From Gordonia sp. KTR9 (GTDB taxonomy: Bacteria; Actinomycetota; Actinomycetes; Mycobacteriales; Mycobacteriaceae), in assembly GCF_000143885.2 (NCBI RefSeq), contig NC_018581.1:2232001-2296000 (forward strand): 64,000 bases of DNA. The letters are read 5' to 3'. Positions 48,841-55,178 of this stretch are shown here, in pieces. Under the pieces are notes generated by a model that saw only the letters and a list, made by a program, of their open reading frames with translations, was not told the DNA's origin and made no database searches. Made by a program: the position numbers and the translations under genes. Position 1 is the stretch's first letter, and each line of letters opens with the position of its first letter.

Positions 48841-49746
48841 ATGCCTGAACTACCCGAGGTCGAGACCGTCCGCATCGGTCTCGAGACCCATCTCGTCGGT
48901 CGGGTGGTGGCGTCGACCGAAGTCCTTCATCCGCGTGCGATCCGTCGTCACCTCGGCGGGGAACCGGATCTGATCGGGCGGCTCGCCGGCAAACAGGTGA
49001 CCGGGGTGCGCCGGCGCGGCAAGTACCTGTGGATCGATCTCGCCGACTCCGCCGACCGGGCGGCGCTGGTGGTCCACCTCGGGATGAGCGGCCAGATGCT
49101 GATCGCGCGGACCGGGACCCCCGACCACACGCATCTGCGGGTTCGTGCCGTCCTCGACGACGAGAACGAACTCCGCTTCGTCGACCAACGGACCTTCGGC
49201 GGTTGGCATCTCGACGACTACACCCCGGATGCGTATGCGCTCGAGAACGGCGCAGCGCCCGCCGACATCCCGATGTCGGTGGCGCACATCGCCACCGATC
49301 CCTTCGACCCCGCCTTCGATGCCGGCCGGGTCGTGGATCGCATGCGCGCCAAGCACTCCGAGATCAAACGGGTCCTCCTGGACCAGACCGTGATCTCCGG
49401 GGTCGGCAACATCTACGCCGACGAGGCGCTCTGGCGCGCGCGACTACACGGCGCGCGGATCGCCGAGACGATCAGTCGCAAGAAGCTGCGGGAGCTGATC
49501 GACGCCGTCACCGAGGTGATGGCGTCGGCCCTGAAGGTCGGCGGCACGTCGTTCGATGCCCTGTACGTGAACGTCAACGGACAGTCCGGGTACTTCGAGC
49601 GGTCTCTCAACGCCTACGGGCGGGCGGGGGAGCCGTGCCGCCGGTGCGGGGCGATCATGCGCAGGGAGCAGTTCATGAACCGCAGCTCGTTCTTCTGTCC
49701 GCGCTGCCAGCGACCGCCGAGCCGCGGGAGTGGGAGCAGGCCTTGA
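48841..49746 (+). CDS. mutM: Formamidopyrimidine-DNA glycosylase
   Basis: A 301-aa Fpg glycosylase/AP lyase removing 8-oxoG and formamidopyrimidines. [11 protein letters not shown] provides P2/E3; Lys in RRRGKYL, the H2[14 protein letters not shown] and the zinc finger CRRCG...CPRC are intact. A short basic Ser/Gly tail follows. It is the left border of the accessory segment; in mycobacteria the osmC-like gene comes next. Confidence 0.96.
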
Positions 49747-50226
49747 GAAGGCCGCGACGGTACAGAGGCTGAGTCGAACCGGGCGCGAATACGGCATCGC
49801 ACGGATTCGCGCGGGCTTTACGCGTCGGGCGGCAAGCGCCCGGTGAAGGATTCGATGTTCACTCGCGCTTCGCCAAGATCGGTCCCGGCAGCCCCAGCTA
49901 CTGCAGGTACAGCATGGGCGGGACTTCGGGCGGTCGGATCCCGGCATCCGCTGGACGCGCAGCATCCGTACAAGGGCTGGCACGTTGACCCCCTACCTGT
50001 CACGGTCAAGGCGCGAAGGTCGGGGATAGCCCGTTACGAAGTCAAGTAACCGTTGGTGGCCTGGAGGTTCTGATGCCGACCGAACCTTTATAAGTGCGAT
50101 CGAAGTCATTGTCGCGTCTCCCACGGAGACGTCGGACTGAGCAGATGCTCGGTTCGGGATGGCGCACATCCAACGAGTATCGCTCGTCGATCAAAACTGT
50201 CGGTGGTTTCGTACATACTCAAAGTC
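49747..50226 (+). other. Left flank of the accessory segment, no confident gene
   Basis: These 480 nt lack a convincing gene. Frames such as 49843-50049 have mixed codon use, no ribosome-binding site and no recognisable motif; they could be remnants. TATAAG near 50087 and CATACT (50214-50219) are promoter-like. I see no integrase, tRNA or obvious direct repeat that would mark an attachment site. Confidence 0.5.
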
Positions 50227-51132
50227 ATGGTCCGGAAGATGACGCCCGCGCAGTTCAGGGCCGCGATGAACAAGCAACAACGCCAACAGAAGCAGGCGAT
50301 CGACAACCATAATCGTGAGGTCCGCCGTCACAACGCAGCGGTGAAGAAAACGGTGAAACTCTATAACCGCGACATGCGCACTTACAACGCAAAGGCTCGT
50401 GCGCACAACGCCCGGGTCGAGAATCAGCGCCGACGCCTCAACCAGGAGATTCAGAGGCTGAACTCTCGCCCGGCGGCCACGACTTTCGTCACCTACCGCT
50501 CGTCAGTCGAGACCCTTGCCCAGGCGTACGCGGCGACCGAAGCGAGCGTTTCCGGACGGACGATTTCGTCAGCAGGACGCGAGCTCGTCGACCGAGGCAG
50601 CGAGGAGGCTGCGAACAGTGCCTACCTGCTCAATGCGATGCACGGCGACGGCGCGCCTGAGGACGATCCGACCGAGAACCAGCTGCGCGGGCCGAGTATG
50701 CAGACTGAGCTCTTGAGGTTCGGGCCGGACCTCGTTGACCGGTGGACAGGTGCCTTGTTCTCCTTGAGCCCGCGCAACCCCGATGCCGCCCGCCACTTTT
50801 GCACCAGCGCGCGAGAGGTGTTGATCGCGATGATCGACGGCGCTGCTCCCGACTCCCGTGTCGCCGAGGCCGATCCGTCATGCAGCCGAACCGACAGGGG
50901 GGTGCCGACCCGACGGGCCAAGGTTGGCTACCTCCTGCGGCGCAAGGGCATTGACGAGAAGTCCATTGAGGACCTCGTCGAGCAAGACATGGACAATGTT
51001 CTCAGCCTCTTCCGCGAGTTCAACGACGGCACTCACGGGCACGCCGGAAAGTTCACGATCACCCAGCTCAACGCACTGCGCATTCGTGTGGAGTCCGCGA
51101 TCGGGTTCATATACGCCCTCTGCCAGGCTTAA
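50227..51132 (+). CDS. Accessory coiled-coil protein with possible pPIWI-associated-nuclease-like domain
   Basis: A 301-aa protein of two parts. Residues 1-85 form a basic, Gln/Asn/Arg-rich coiled coil. The rest (about 155-301) has DLVDRWTGALFSLSPRNPD, SAREVLIAMIDG, a basic KVGYLLRRKG and FNDGTHGHAGKF, a layout I associate from memory with the predicted pPIWI-associating nuclease family; this was not searched. Putative active residues would be the Arg/His/Asp of these motifs. The start is ATG 50227; CATACT ends 7 nt before it, suggesting a leaderless message; a longer frame starts at 50203. Codon use is less GC3-rich than in neighbours. It lies 164 nt upstream of the 37-aa ORF and TrlF gene and could act with them. 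Confidence 0.55.
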   Translation: MVRKMTPAQFRAAMNKQQRQQKQAIDNHNREVRRHNAAVKKTVKLYNRDMRTYNAKARAHNARVENQRRRLNQEIQRLNSRPAATTFVTYRSSVETLAQAYAATEASVSGRTISSAGRELVDRGSEEAANSAYLLNAMHGDGAPEDDPTENQLRGPSMQTELLRFGPDLVDRWTGALFSLSPRNPDAARHFCTSAREVLIAMIDGAAPDSRVAEADPSCSRTDRGVPTRRAKVGYLLRRKGIDEKSIEDLVEQDMDNVLSLFREFNDGTHGHAGKFTITQLNALRIRVESAIGFIYALCQA

Positions 51133-51234
51133 TACCCGCCGTCGGTCTTGCAGAGCCTATGGTCACGCACTGAGTGACCACATGGTTTCTGAGGCAGTCG
51201 GTCTCGGCTCCCAAGCTCTGTCGGTACCCACCGA

Positions 51235-51240
51235 TACGAT
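51235..51240 (+). promoter_or_regulatory. Possible -10 element TACGAT before the small ORF-trlF pair
   Basis: TACGAT fits TANNNT and would start transcription near 51247, giving a leader of about 50 nt for the 37-aa ORF. A small TCGGT/ACCGA repeat (51221-51234) precedes it. Confidence 0.35.
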
Positions 51241-51296
51241 GACTCCTCAATGAGGTGCTCGCTATCTGCGGTGCGCCGGGTCTCGAAAGGGAGTGT

Positions 51297-51410
51297 ATGT
51301 CGAAGATCGTTACTCGGACTCGGCGCCGCAAAACAGGCGAAGGGGCGACGAATCGCAAGATCAACACGCAGCGGGCTGTGAATTTTCAACCTAAGGCGTA
51401 CTCGGCGTGA
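51297..51410 (+). CDS. 37-aa basic small ORF coupled to trlF
   Basis: ATG 51297, with GGGAG just upstream, opens a 37-codon frame ending at TGA 51408-51410. The peptide is very basic (MSKIVTRTRRRKTGEGATNR at its start) with no hydrophobic segment. Its stop shares bases with the GTG start of the TrlF gene at 51407 (GTGA), the same coupling seen in operons in this window, so it is probably translated. It may be a cofactor, inhibitor or translational leader; no homologue is known to me. Confidence 0.55.
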   Translation: MSKIVTRTRRRKTGEGATNRKINTQRAVNFQPKAYSA

Positions 51411-54175
51411 CCAGTCTTGATTTGAGCGAATCGTCAGCTGAAGCTTCTGACGAACACGGGGCCGCCAACCTCTCCGTAACGAGTCGAGGCGTCGGTGGTC
51501 GTTGGTGGAGTCTGGACATCCACGCGCACTCGCCAGCGTCGTTCGACTACGGCGGTCTCCCTGATGTTCGAAGCGATGCTCCGAAGCCAACTTTTAAAGA
51601 GTGGATCCGGGCGTATAGCGACGCAGGCGTCAATGGCATCGTCGTCGCTGATCACAACACGCACGAGGGGATCGAGCAAGCGCGTGCTGCGCTTGCGGAG
51701 CTGATCGACGAGGACCAAAGGTTCTCGACACTTGTGATCTTCCCCGGCGTGGAATTGACAGTGACCGGCGGGATACATGCTCTCGCTATCTTCGACCCAG
51801 AAAGCCCGGCCGAGATCGTCAACCAAACGTTAACGCTCTGCCAATACAAGGGCACTCGAGGGGCCAGCGACCAAACAGCCGAGGTGACGGTTGGGGCCGC
51901 CGCTAAGATCGTGGACGAGCTGGGCGGCCTATTCGTGCCCGCTCATGCGGATAAGAAGCACGGCGTACTCAAGATGGACTCGCGCGAGCTGGCATCCCTT
52001 GGCGAGAGTCCCTACATCTACGCTGTCGAGGTAATCGACGACGATGCGCTCGACCTTGTCGCCCCTTGGAATTGGGTGCCGCTGCTAGGGTCCGACGCAC
52101 ACCATCTCACAGTCGATTCACACCCAGACCCGGCCTCGGCCAAGGCGCCAGGCACGCACCTCACACTCGTGAAGGCCGAAACTCTCAACCTTCAAGGCCT
52201 GCGACTGGCGCTCACAGATCCGCAAGAGTCGATCCGACGGTGCCTCAAGGACTATGACGACCCAAATGTCATCGACCACGGCCACATCAACTCGCTTGAG
52301 GTCAGCCACGAAGGTGCGACGGAAACATATCGATTCGGCCCGTGGATGAACTGCCTCATCGGCGGCCGCGGAGTTGGCAAGTCGACAGTCCTCGAACTCC
52401 TCCGGTTGGCCCTGGGCCGGTCCAGCGAATTACCGCAGGGCATCGCAGTCGATCTGGTCAGGTTCGATCCCCAATGCGAGCCGGAGCAGCAGTGGTGGGG
52501 TTCCGGAACTCGGATAACTGTCAATTACACGAAGGATGGACGTCCACTGAAGGTGACATGGCTTGGGTCGGACCCTACGCATTCGAAGATCGAACTGTGG
52601 GATGGATCTAAATGGGAGGTGCAGGCTGGGCGCGTGTACGACCGTGCGCCGGTCCGTGTCTTCAGCCAGAAGCAGATCTACGAGTTGGCGTCGCAGCCAC
52701 AGAGCTTTCTCGCCATCCTTGATGACATGCCGCAGATTAGGCGAGCAGAGTGGGACGAGGAGTACGAGGCGCTCCAGCTTCGTTTTAAAGGTGAGAGAAA
52801 CAAGCTGCGGCAACTGCTCGCTGAATCGGAGAAGGCTGATCGGATTCGTGGCGAACTGGAGGAAGTGCGGGGCCGACTGCGTCACCTCGAGGAAGTCAAA
52901 GCGAGTAGTGAGTATCAGGAGCTCGAGACGCTCGAGACCCGACTTCGGCAGTCCGTGTCCGCCGAGGAGGAGGCGGTCAAGATCGAACGCGAAGCCCGTG
53001 GTCAGGCGACAATGTTGCGCGGACTTACGACCGAGTTTCTTAATGTGGCTGAATACTCGGACCGCGCGGCGTCCCTCATCCGCGCGGCGGACCTCATGGA
53101 TGAAGCTTCGCGCGAGTTGAGTACTGCGAGGTCAGCTTGGGAGGCGGGAACGGCGCATCAGCAATGGCAAGCGCGAGTCACTGAGCTCAACACGTGGCTG
53201 AGTGACCAGGGCGGGCCCTCACGCGTTGCTCCGGAGCAGACGCGACTGGATCGCCAGCGACAAGCCGAGCTGGAGAAGGAGTTGCGCTCGGTCGAGAACT
53301 CTGATGAGCACAGGGCACAACAAGAGTCTGTGATTGATGAGATTCTGACCTTAGTCATAGACAAGCGACGTGAACTCTTTGAGCGCCGAAAAGCATTTAC
53401 CAATGCCCTGAACTACTCCGGTGGATCCCTCACAAAGGTGGAGGTGTTCCATCAGGGCGACATCGGCAGGCTGGAAGGCTCGCTCCGCGACTTACTCAAC
53501 TGTCCCGACTCGTTCGACTCGGCATTTGCGAAGGATGGCATCGCGTCCTTCTTGAACTGCCACCAACCGAAGTCCCCGGGATTCGCAGATCACGTCGTCA
53601 ACTTTAAGGAGAAGCTCGTCGAGCTGGTTGAAGATGGGGTCGGTGCGCAGATTGCATCTGGGTTCAAGGTTGATTCGCGTTTCTACAACAGGTTTGCGAA
53701 CATCGACACTTTCGATCTTGTAACCGACATCATGCTGTGGTTTCCGGACGACCTCGTTTCGGTTCGCTATCGACTACGTGACGCGGGTAACTTCGTACCC
53801 GTCGATCGGGGATCTCCAGGGCAAAAGACAGCAGCATTATTGACGGTCATCCTCCAAATGGGAACGGATCCGTTGCTTTTAGATCAGCCCGAGGACGACT
53901 TAGAGAACAAATTGATCCGCCATTTGGCGGTCCAGACCCTCAAGACCATAAAGCGGAATCGCCAACTCATTATCTCGACGCACAATGCCAACGTAGTCGT
54001 GACATCCGGCTCGGAGAACATCATCGTCCTGCAACACGGGGATCTGTTGCCAGTGGTTGAGGCAGAGGGGACGTTGCAACGGGCGGCAGTGCGGGAGAAC
54101 GTCTGTGAGATTCTCGAGGGTGGCGAAGACGCCATCAAGACACGATATCGGCGCTTGATCGGATCCCTTGACTAG
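51407..54175 (+). CDS. TrlF-type PHP-phosphoesterase / SMC-like ATPase
   Basis: A 922-aa two-domain protein. The N-terminal PHP domain (about 30-265) has all metal-binding motifs: D37-x-H39-x-H41, D82-H83, E116, H180, and D230-x-H232. The ABC/SMC-type ATPase has Walker A GGRGVGKST (317-325), a coiled coil at about 445-670, signature-like GSPGQK (802-807), Walker B LLLDQPED (D826, E829) and the H-loop STHNAN (H859). This matches TrlF-type ATPases, which occur in bacterial defence islands; the mechanism is, as far as I know, poorly defined. GTG 51407 overlaps the stop of the 37-aa ORF. Codon use is AT-richer than in the core, implying horizontal transfer. Confidence 0.88.
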   Translation: MTSLDLSESSAEASDEHGAANLSVTSRGVGGRWWSLDIHAHSPASFDYGGLPDVRSDAPKPTFKEWIRAYSDAGVNGIVVADHNTHEGIEQARAALAELIDEDQRFSTLVIFPGVELTVTGGIHALAIFDPESPAEIVNQTLTLCQYKGTRGASDQTAEVTVGAAAKIVDELGGLFVPAHADKKHGVLKMDSRELASLGESPYIYAVEVIDDDALDLVAPWNWVPLLGSDAHHLTVDSHPDPASAKAPGTHLTLVKAETLNLQGLRLALTDPQESIRRCLKDYDDPNVIDHGHINSLEVSHEGATETYRFGPWMNCLIGGRGVGKSTVLELLRLALGRSSELPQGIAVDLVRFDPQCEPEQQWWGSGTRITVNYTKDGRPLKVTWLGSDPTHSKIELWDGSKWEVQAGRVYDRAPVRVFSQKQIYELASQPQSFLAILDDMPQIRRAEWDEEYEALQLRFKGERNKLRQLLAESEKADRIRGELEEVRGRLRHLEEVKASSEYQELETLETRLRQSVSAEEEAVKIEREARGQATMLRGLTTEFLNVAEYSDRAASLIRAADLMDEASRELSTARSAWEAGTAHQQWQARVTELNTWLSDQGGPSRVAPEQTRLDRQRQAELEKELRSVENSDEHRAQQESVIDEILTLVIDKRRELFERRKAFTNALNYSGGSLTKVEVFHQGDIGRLEGSLRDLLNCPDSFDSAFAKDGIASFLNCHQPKSPGFADHVVNFKEKLVELVEDGVGAQIASGFKVDSRFYNRFANIDTFDLVTDIMLWFPDDLVSVRYRLRDAGNFVPVDRGSPGQKTAALLTVILQMGTDPLLLDQPEDDLENKLIRHLAVQTLKTIKRNRQLIISTHNANVVVTSGSENIIVLQHGDLLPVVEAEGTLQRAAVRENVCEILEGGEDAIKTRYRRLIGSLD

Positions 54176-54719
54176 CCCGTCAAACACGGCCGCCACTCAG
54201 GCGTGCCCCTAGAGCGTCGCGGTCAGCGGTACGGACGTCGCCTGGCTTTGTCGCTGCGTCGCGATCACCCGGCCACGGGTGGTAACAGGCCGGAGGTCGG
54301 GTCGCGCCACTTCAGGCTCGGTCTGGTCGCAAGCGACGATCAAGATGCGGGTGGGGCAACATCTTCCCTCGGGTTGCGGTTGCGGACGTAGGGCCTGCAC
54401 GTCGCCGCCACAGACGACCTCGCGCAGATCACGCAGCCTTTAGTCGAAGCTAAACCTCTCGTCCAGTGCGTGACGCCGCCGCTCGGCTCTCTTGGAGGAC
54501 CGACCCCAACTCGGAAGACTTGCGTTGCAGTGGTTCTAGGGGCGATATGGGGATCCAGCGTAAGGGGCATCGTGCGTTTCCCAGGCTTTGAGCCGGTGTG
54601 GGAGCTGCGACGCGGTGCGGGGGCAATCACTAACTGGGAACAATTCCCGATCCGGAGCTCTTACTATTGTTCGCGATGCCGGCGGCGCCCGCCGGAGACT
54701 CTGAGAGGACCCGCCTTCG
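54176..54719 (+). other. Right flank of the accessory segment, no confident gene
   Basis: These 544 nt contain only weak frames (for example 54340-54630 minus, 54470-54958 plus) that lack start signals and known motifs. They may be degraded DNA left from insertion. I see no terminal repeat or tRNA. Confidence 0.5.
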
Positions 54720-55178
54720 ATGACCACCGAAGCCACTGCCCCCACGTCCGGGGTCCCTGCCGACCAGGTCCACACCGACCTCTGGGTCGAGCGCACGGGC
54801 ACCCGCCGTTACACCGGACGAAGCTCTCGCGGCGCCGAGGTGCTGATCGGCTCACAGGACGTCGAGGGTGTCTTCACCCCGGGCGAACTGCTCAAGATCG
54901 CACTGGCCGCCTGTACGGGGATGTCGTCGGACCGGCCGCTGGCCCGTCGCCTCGGTGACGACTACGACGCGACGATCCGGGTGAGTGGCGACGCGGACCG
55001 CGAGAACGAGGTCTACCCGCGCATCGAGGAGATCCTCGAGATCGACCTGTCCGAGCTCGAACCCGAGGCCGCGGCGCGCCTGCTCGTCGTCGTCGAACGC
55101 GCCATCGACGCGGTGTGCACCGTCGGACGTACCGTCAAGGCCGGTGCCGAGGTGGATCTGCGGATCGAGACGGACTGA
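54720..55178 (+). CDS. OsmC-family protein
   Basis: A 152-aa OsmC/Ohr-fold protein, type found after mutM in mycobacteria (Rv2923c). Cys in ALAACTGM and in AVCTVGRTV are candidate redox residues, consistent with peroxide reduction, though Ohr versus OsmC type is not resolved. ATG 54720 follows GAGAGGAC. acyP begins a few nucleotides after its stop. Confidence 0.85.
   Translation: MTTEATAPTSGVPADQVHTDLWVERTGTRRYTGRSSRGAEVLIGSQDVEGVFTPGELLKIALAACTGMSSDRPLARRLGDDYDATIRVSGDADRENEVYPRIEEILEIDLSELEPEAAARLLVVVERAIDAVCTVGRTVKAGAEVDLRIETD

Follow-up and report, generated by a model that had tools for sequence, protein, structure and literature searches.

Two independent single-gene modules, one of the TrlF/Ppl family and one of family PF18165, at a probable integration hotspot at the 3′ end of mutM in Gordonia sp. 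KTR9

Here, we analyse the interval between mutM and an osmC-like gene in a stretch of 64,000 nucleotides from Gordonia sp. KTR9 (contig NC_018581.1, positions 2,232,001 to 2,296,000), hereafter the window, whose first letter is position 1 of all coordinates given. Between the end of mutM at 49746 and the start of osmC at 54720 lie 4,973 bases with three open reading frames (ORFs), all on the + strand: gene A, a basic ORF of 37 amino acids (aa) and gene B. An initial annotation, made from the sequence alone, had described an insert of about 5 kb with three + strand ORFs at this position and had interpreted it as a horizontally acquired three-gene cassette and candidate defence system; its coordinates and ORFs are confirmed here. 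We find that the insert is foreign cargo, composed of one member of a known single-gene defence family (gene B) and one independent PF18165 nuclease candidate (gene A), and we consider it probable that these two independent modules occupy a recurrent integration hotspot at the mutM 3′ end. The locus is composed as follows.

48841..49746, + strand: mutM (formamidopyrimidine-DNA glycosylase), left boundary gene; Pfam Fapy_DNA_glyco, H2TH and zf-FPG_IleRS
49583..49746, + strand: mutM 3′ segment past the integration junction of relatives, the part replaced by mutM-targeting elements; placed by the junction common to displaced copies in nine relatives
49747..50226, no strand: left non-coding flank of the insert; from the sequence and the ORF list
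50227..51132, + strand: gene A, 301 aa, long N-terminal helix and PF18165 domain, all-helical, possibly HEPN-like; Pfam, 58-sequence alignment, AlphaFold2 and structure comparisons
51160..51180, + strand: terminator-like hairpin in the gap between gene A and the small ORF; from a consensus scan only, not above shuffles
51297..51410, + strand: 37-aa basic ORF, its stop overlapping the GTG start of gene B, without counterpart at homologous loci; ORF list and homologue comparison
51407..54175, + strand: gene B, 922 aa, TrlF/Ppl-family PHP exonuclease-SMC-like ATPase, motifs intact; PADLOC Ppl, NCBIfam TrlF and motif check
54176..54559, no strand: right non-coding flank, without detected integrase or element-arm remnant; relaxed tblastn and arm search
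54560..54719, + strand: decayed displaced mutM 3′ copy adjoining osmC; firm core 54592-54691, outer limits uncertain
54720..55178, + strand: osmC-like gene, right boundary gene; Pfam OsmC, present in 59/59 genus genomes

In windows of 500 bases the GC content of the insert ranges from 0.53 to 0.65, compared with 0.67-0.70 in its flanks. The AT-rich codon usage that had been noted for the whole insert holds for gene B, in which 25 of 923 codons are TTA, AAT or TTT (7, 8 and 10, respectively) and the GC content at third codon positions (GC3) is 0.68, and only weakly for gene A, with 5 such codons in 302 (0, 4 and 1; GC3 0.79); mutM, rnc, osmC and smc together contain a single TTA, AAT or TTT codon and have GC3 values of 0.85-0.87. 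Because the closest relatives, G015 and G022, have gaps of 105 and 114 bp at this position and because the composition of the insert is foreign, we agree with the initial annotation that the insert was acquired horizontally. We take ATG 50227 as the start of gene A; the alternative GTG at 50203 would give a protein of 309 aa. The terminator-like hairpin behind gene A is a weak assignment (two such sites compared with 4.5 expected in shuffles), and three Rfam matches within 49500-55000 all fall far under their gathering scores.

The tight spacing of the three ORFs on one strand, with the small ORF's stop overlapping the gene B start, could indicate a single co-evolved antiphage system of gene A, the 37-aa ORF and gene B, but this arrangement is not repeated where homologues occur. 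Relatives of gene A number 94 in our genome scan and are spread over many phyla, from Actinomycetota to Bacteroidota, and the locus analyses reported here cover the best 80 of them. In tblastn searches of these loci (E-value ≤1e-3; flanks of up to 8 kb, some ended by contigs), no gene B-like match was found near a gene A relative (0/80). The closest relative of gene B, 77% identical over residues 28-612, is encoded on the Gordonia rubripertincta plasmid pGRS1, which carries no gene A and is not among the A-encoding plasmids (6 records). A second relative, in G295, is 71-72% identical up to residue 527, its gene lying at a contig end, and has no gene A beside it in 9 kb. At the A loci, DNA similarity to the window does not extend beyond gene A except for some 30 bases at most in front of it; in G295 it is confined to gene B. 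For the 37-aa ORF, neither the A loci nor the G295 stretch yielded a match, and three-frame translations inspected by eye revealed no counterpart upstream of the two gene B relatives. Because relatives of A and B do not co-occur at any of the loci compared and similarity ends at the gene borders, we conclude that the three ORFs are not one system, and we now give the single-system interpretation almost no credence; judged from sequence comparisons, the insert probably consists of two single-gene modules that were acquired separately, and the three-gene cassette proposed initially does not survive as a unit.

Gene B matches the PADLOC Ppl model over residues 29-918 (E-value 1.2e-102) and the NCBIfam model TrlF_fam_ATP (NF045780) over residues 30-917, where its 397.9 bits pass the cut-off of 350. 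Its motifs DIHAHS, ADHN, GVELT, PAHAD, GSDAH, GGRGVGKST, SPGQK, LLLDQPEDD and STHN align with those of an enterobacterial TrlF (L197), and we take them to represent the PHP ligand motifs, Walker A, signature, Walker B and H-loop. In these motifs and in full-length domain order gene B resembles Ppl/TrlF, and we conclude that it is an intact TrlF/Ppl-type PHP exonuclease-SMC-like ATPase of predicted activity. Two values weigh against this assignment, namely 410.4 bits with the Ppl equivalog model NF042955, far under the cut-off of 1000, and an identity of about 31% (288/935 columns) to the L197 TrlF. By analogy with E. coli Ppl, as described in passages of a 2026 review (PMC12904381), gene B may provide single-gene phage defence: it would be a single-stranded DNA 3′-5′ exonuclease that is blocked by bound nucleoside triphosphates and freed once a phage depletes nucleotides and exposes 3′-OH ends. 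The idea of a defence module in the insert is hence retained for gene B, on the strength of its Ppl/TrlF match, and abandoned for the three genes as one system.

SMC-like ATPases act in repair, and gene B might instead be a DNA-repair or housekeeping protein with no part in defence. We consider this unlikely, given that its best-matching families are Ppl and TrlF and that its occurrence is sporadic: any match is present in 6/59 genus genomes, the window's included (the others being three full-length homologues of 26% identity in G001, G020 and G028 and two partial ones), and a close match (E-value 1e-60) in 2/298 genomes of the order, again including the window's, with three candidates scored per genome. 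Remoter TrlF relatives are found on 410 other plasmid records, mostly enterobacterial, and one of these enterobacterial relatives adjoins a restriction-modification pair, which likewise argues against a repair function. On pGRS1 (NZ_CP059695.1 89113-94270), the gene B relative measures just 632 aa, with genes for a 346-aa protein and a SIR2 protein next downstream; it is perhaps a split or chimeric version.

Gene A had been described as a 301-aa coiled-coil protein. The protein is not only a coiled coil, as residues 173-302 (309-aa form) match PF18165 (pP_pnuc_1) with an E-value of 1.4e-42 and 145 bits, far above the gathering score of 26.3. In an AlphaFold2 model with a predicted local distance difference test score (pLDDT) of 89.5, a 73-residue N-terminal helix precedes an all-helical C-terminal domain, which reached a pLDDT of 88.0 when modelled alone. 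While the C-terminal domain is that of the family, the family's designation as a predicted pPIWI-associating nuclease has no correspondence here: there is no pPIWI or Argonaute gene among the three ORFs of the insert, gene A stands alone and the family is widespread without gene B. Under its names, PF18165 is the subject of no paper in the open-licence PubMed Central (PMC) literature, and the word HEPN is absent from the part of the pPIWI-families paper available to us (PMC3702460).

A possible kinship of gene A with HEPN ribonucleases comes from structure comparison. VIA-align scores were 5.9 with AF0298, 6.1 with the sacsin HEPN domain, 5.4-5.8 with HEPN toxins, up to 7.0 with MntA-HepT and 6.2 with LsoA, the last two of which we take to be HEPN structures. 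Two observations speak against this kinship: unrelated helical bundles score as high, up to 7.8, which leaves the comparison tied, and the arginine of the canonical HEPN Rx4-6H motif (R263) is not conserved, the histidine H270 being invariant. Invariant residues in the 58-sequence alignment include NPDAARHFC, R196, H270, R287 and E289, and the invariant arginines R189, R196 and R287 could substitute for R263. Foldseek returned no match at E ≤0.001 for the full-length model or the C-terminal domain against the PDB, or for the full-length model against viral models. We treat the HEPN-like fold suggested by these models as a possible lead and not as a result. Gene A is most likely a PF18165 accessory nuclease that would act apart from gene B; its N-terminal basic helix would bind nucleic acid or a partner, and its domain, if HEPN-like, would cut RNA.

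The surroundings of gene A relatives were compared with PADLOC using 103 neighbouring ORFs. These derive from 346 ORFs found by script, reduced to 157 by allowing at most two per locus and to 111 by a size limit; eight more were dropped by hand, seven for homology to retained ORFs and L077 for no such reason. Of the best 25 of 208 families matched, mad2 had 4 members and Argonaute-associated restriction endonucleases had 3; there were 2 each for the methyltransferases of types I and II, and a single one for each of BrxL, GajA and PDC-S06. On a Phaeobacter plasmid the gene A relative lies downstream of a type II restriction pair, on a Dinoroseobacter plasmid it lies near reverse-transcriptase and polymerase genes, and none of the phage records searched encodes a relative. 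The initial annotation had held that homologues which never co-occur and lack defence neighbours would contradict a defence module; the A/B pair indeed never co-occurs, but defence neighbours are present. In three of the loci with the closest gene A relatives (L039, L040 and L043; 73-83% identity), the gene is followed by ORFs of 648, 408-456 and 1037 aa, which, judged from their sizes and methyltransferase matches, look like a type I restriction-modification operon. We propose that PF18165 proteins be flagged as candidate stand-alone defence nucleases.

The comparison of the site across the genus covers 59 genomes including the window's, of which 53 could be scored for the mutM-osmC interval; in the other six (G005, G017, G036, G045, G047 and G051) contig ends intervene. 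For three genomes the gap was supplied by hand, by addition for G023 (~11.7 kb) and from coordinates for G030 and G052. The earlier statement that mutM adjoins the osmC-like gene in relatives holds for 22/53 genomes, with gaps of <300 bp, and does not hold for 28, the window included, with gaps of >1 kb; the remaining three gaps measure 313-622 bp, the 313 bp in G018 reflecting a broken mutM frame (68 by the other measurement). A PADLOC scan of 73 ORFs (≥160 aa) located in the interval at 28 loci, with G052 represented by its osmC-proximal part only, revealed defence cargo that includes SIR2-HerA in G057, IetA-IetS in G003, DzbA in G055 and PDC-S06 in G011; G012 has one of the two mad3-like matches. 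Much of the cargo counts against a defence-specific site, as it includes five DUF222 and six HNH proteins, four MFS transporters, transposases and hydrolases, and for this reason we do not regard mutM-osmC as purely a defence site.

Evidence that integration takes place at the mutM 3′ end comes from second copies of this end on the osmC side, which passed our filter in eleven other genomes. Nine of them (G007, G009, G010, G011, G014, G043, G047, G052 and G057) begin at a common point, AGTC followed by codons for G-Y-F or a close variant; in the window's mutM this tetranucleotide occupies 49583-49586, inside codons 248-249. Over the 45 bases preceding the nine junctions, 21 columns agree in at least 6/9 sequences, whereas 1000 random-offset draws, a control that ignores relatedness, gave 3.2 on average and never more than 9; agreement in this upstream arm is weak in G007 and G009 (L148 and L151), and G014 and G043 are near-identical.

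A complete element is visible in G052 (L160/L184/L185). There, mutM is interrupted at codon ~248, a replacement 3′ end is provided on the element and the old 3′ end lies on the osmC side, the interrupted mutM and the displaced copy being 21,969 bp apart (an element of ~22 kb). The last 19 kb of the element encode a relaxase, a TraG-like coupling protein, a DUF5906/Pox_D5-type protein and a serine recombinase of 486 aa that starts 40 bp away from the right junction. At its own junction, G047 encodes in the same position a serine recombinase of 64% identity. These are two of the 12 genus genomes with any match to the recombinase at an E-value of 1e-20, and while both have a mutM 3′ end beside the gene (2/2), none of the 15 other integrase relatives checked out of 20 (9/14 and 6/6) does. 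Consistent with the element supplying the 3′ end, the mutM genes of G010, G011 and G043, compared with those of genomes that resemble them at the 5′ end, show an identity of 0.60 in the 3′ part and 0.77-0.82 in the 5′ part (z -3.3 to -3.7), as expected under such a replacement; the strongest opposite outliers, with 3′ ends more alike than expected, reach z values of 2.9. A phage or plasmid source of attP was considered and rejected: the mutM 3′ end gave one match in phage records (69% identity over 81% of the query, unannotated) and matched four plasmid records, and a degenerate pattern of it gave 0 matches in viral contigs.

The window itself carries a trace of this process in its right flank. 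The flanks had been called degraded-looking, and the right one indeed holds a decayed second mutM 3′ copy: positions 54592-54691 are ~70% identical to 49620-49719 of mutM, with a strict score of 157 compared with a shuffle maximum of 93 (0/1000). Under lax scoring, with a query that began at the junction and contained nothing before it, 49584-49744 aligns with 54560-54717 at a score of 280, compared with at most 182 in shuffles (0/1000) and at most 204 in 1390 window tiles. When strict scoring was applied to the two sides of the junction, the upstream part was at chance (446/500 shuffles as high) and the downstream part was not (0/500). The corresponding stretch before osmC also resembles the respective own mutM in L012, L015, L121 and L124 (0/300 shuffles each), more weakly in L119 (6/300) and L120 (13/300), and not significantly in L122 (47/300) and the distant L020 (287/300). 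As relatives share this stretch, the founding event must predate the clade, and it does not date the cargo.

A promoter of osmC must lie in this same region, and a conserved promoter that resembles mutM by chance would also account for the lack of a mutM-like stretch in L020 and for a resemblance that is marginal or unimpressive in the two nearest cargo-free relatives. We nevertheless find this very improbable, since no shuffle among 1000 and no tile among 1390 attains the window's score, four relatives repeat the likeness against their own mutM, and longer copies exist in other species. On the sequence evidence, we consider the window's copy of the mutM 3′ end to be real and an ancient integration to explain the site. 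The displaced fragment is the region directly 5′ of osmC, with GGGAACAAT and TTACTATTG among the stretches common to relatives, and may itself serve as the osmC promoter.

Several findings weigh against deriving the window's site from the integrase-borne elements. A longer lax alignment ran past the junction, and the firm core of the copy starts 37 bases after it, which fixes the start of the copy only to some tens of bases. Among the nearest cargo-free relatives, the resemblance is marginal in G015 (L010; 3/300) and reaches a score of 105, without shuffles, in G022 (L011). The window's mutM 3′ end is of its clade's own type. Relaxed tblastn detected no serine-integrase remnant in the interval (best E-value 0.35), and a search for the element arm found none there, the best position, at 0.3 bits, being mutM's own junction. 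Elsewhere in the genus, the second copies of G055 and G023 begin later than the junction, the pre-osmC fragment of G012 extends upstream across it, and an interrupted mutM is seen in G052 alone, that of G047 lying beyond the contig end. With neither an integrase remnant nor an element arm, the window is tied to the integrase family only through its displaced 3′ end. The initial observation that the site has no integrase and no tRNA remains valid, the two tRNAs of the window (ARAGORN) both being located at 18.7-19.1 kb.

A different origin of the cargo would be homologous recombination between the conserved flanks, mutM to the left and osmC-smc to the right, unconnected with any integrase and much later than its action, with the hotspot maintained by flank exchange. 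Besides the missing integrase and arm, this route is favoured by the 22/53 genomes with a gap of <300 bp, which offer conserved flanks to recombine, and by G055 (L120 6272-10336), whose mutM is 92% identical to the window's compared with 81-84% for its relatives, and in which an older mutM 3′ copy persists beside the HNH gene; here mutM and cassette may have been imported together. Against it stand the single junction shared by second copies in nine genomes, most of them with a shared upstream arm, and the complete element of G052, which implies that integration does act here. We regard flank recombination as quite possible, if on balance not probable.

We believe that two independent single-gene modules in a recurrent integration hotspot at the mutM 3′ end probably describe the locus best. 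Serine-integrase elements would recombine at mutM codon ~248 and supply a new 3′ end, the arrangement being that read in G052; mutM would stay whole and its old 3′ end would be displaced toward osmC. The window's clade would descend from such an event, with subsequent loss of the integrase and the element arm, and the present cargo would have come with the founding element or by later exchange. A more far-reaching version, which we find rather doubtful, treats the mutM 3′ end as a genus-wide pad on which elements swap in the last ~54 codons and so re-engineer the tail of this core repair enzyme, small integrase-less cassettes use the pad in trans like cis-mobilizable elements, and the displaced end is recycled upstream of osmC. 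The last ~54 codons contain the whole Pfam zinc-finger region.

The proposed hotspot has parallels in known systems. In the sections available of a study of the Streptomyces element PAISt (PMC4057263), an element inserted at the 3′ end of bacA has a displaced duplicate of that end at its other border, as found here, and its recombinase, with the catalytic residues R209, R375 and Y407, is associated with the core TTCATGAA; at our locus, by contrast, the recombinase is a serine recombinase, the gene is mutM and the junction lies at codon ~248. The TTCATGAA palindrome of PAISt also occurs in the window's mutM 3′ end at 49672 and in many second copies. We rejected TTCATGAA as the attachment (att) core in mutM: it is no more than the Phe-Met-Asn codons and lies about 90 bases downstream of the point at which the nine second copies start. 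Hotspots in the E. coli pan-genome and in P2/P4-like phages, as outlined in portions of two reports (PMC10121019, PMC9122126), likewise hold variable, defence-rich cargo between conserved flanks; mutM-osmC differs from these in being actinobacterial, in its serine-integrase element and in its mixed cargo. In the open-licence PMC literature, no title or abstract among the matches listed joins mutM or fpg with an integrase, attB, a genomic island or a hotspot.

Among the findings reported here, it is the hotspot with its serine-integrase elements that merits further study. The att junction is fixed to a few bases in nine genomes, and the actinobacterial serine integrase with attB in mutM and a predicted attP in the element forms a testable pair; the arrangement suggests that the last ~54 codons of a repair gene are exchanged upon integration. 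The mutM-osmC junction also provides a predictable address at which horizontally acquired defence and other cargo can be catalogued genome by genome, and gene B adds a divergent actinobacterial member to Ppl/TrlF.

Two further observations concern the cargo of other loci. The SIR2-HerA pair of L127 (G057) is flanked by two mutM-like 5′ parts and a single second 3′ end, possibly the outcome of more than one integration, with one mutM copy broken. Immediately 5′ of osmC, L119, L120 and L122 encode a DUF222-HNH-type protein (474-501 aa), which in L124 lies between mutM and another gene; another DUF222 protein is present at L140. The DUF222-HNH protein could be a homing-type endonuclease of the mutM-osmC site.

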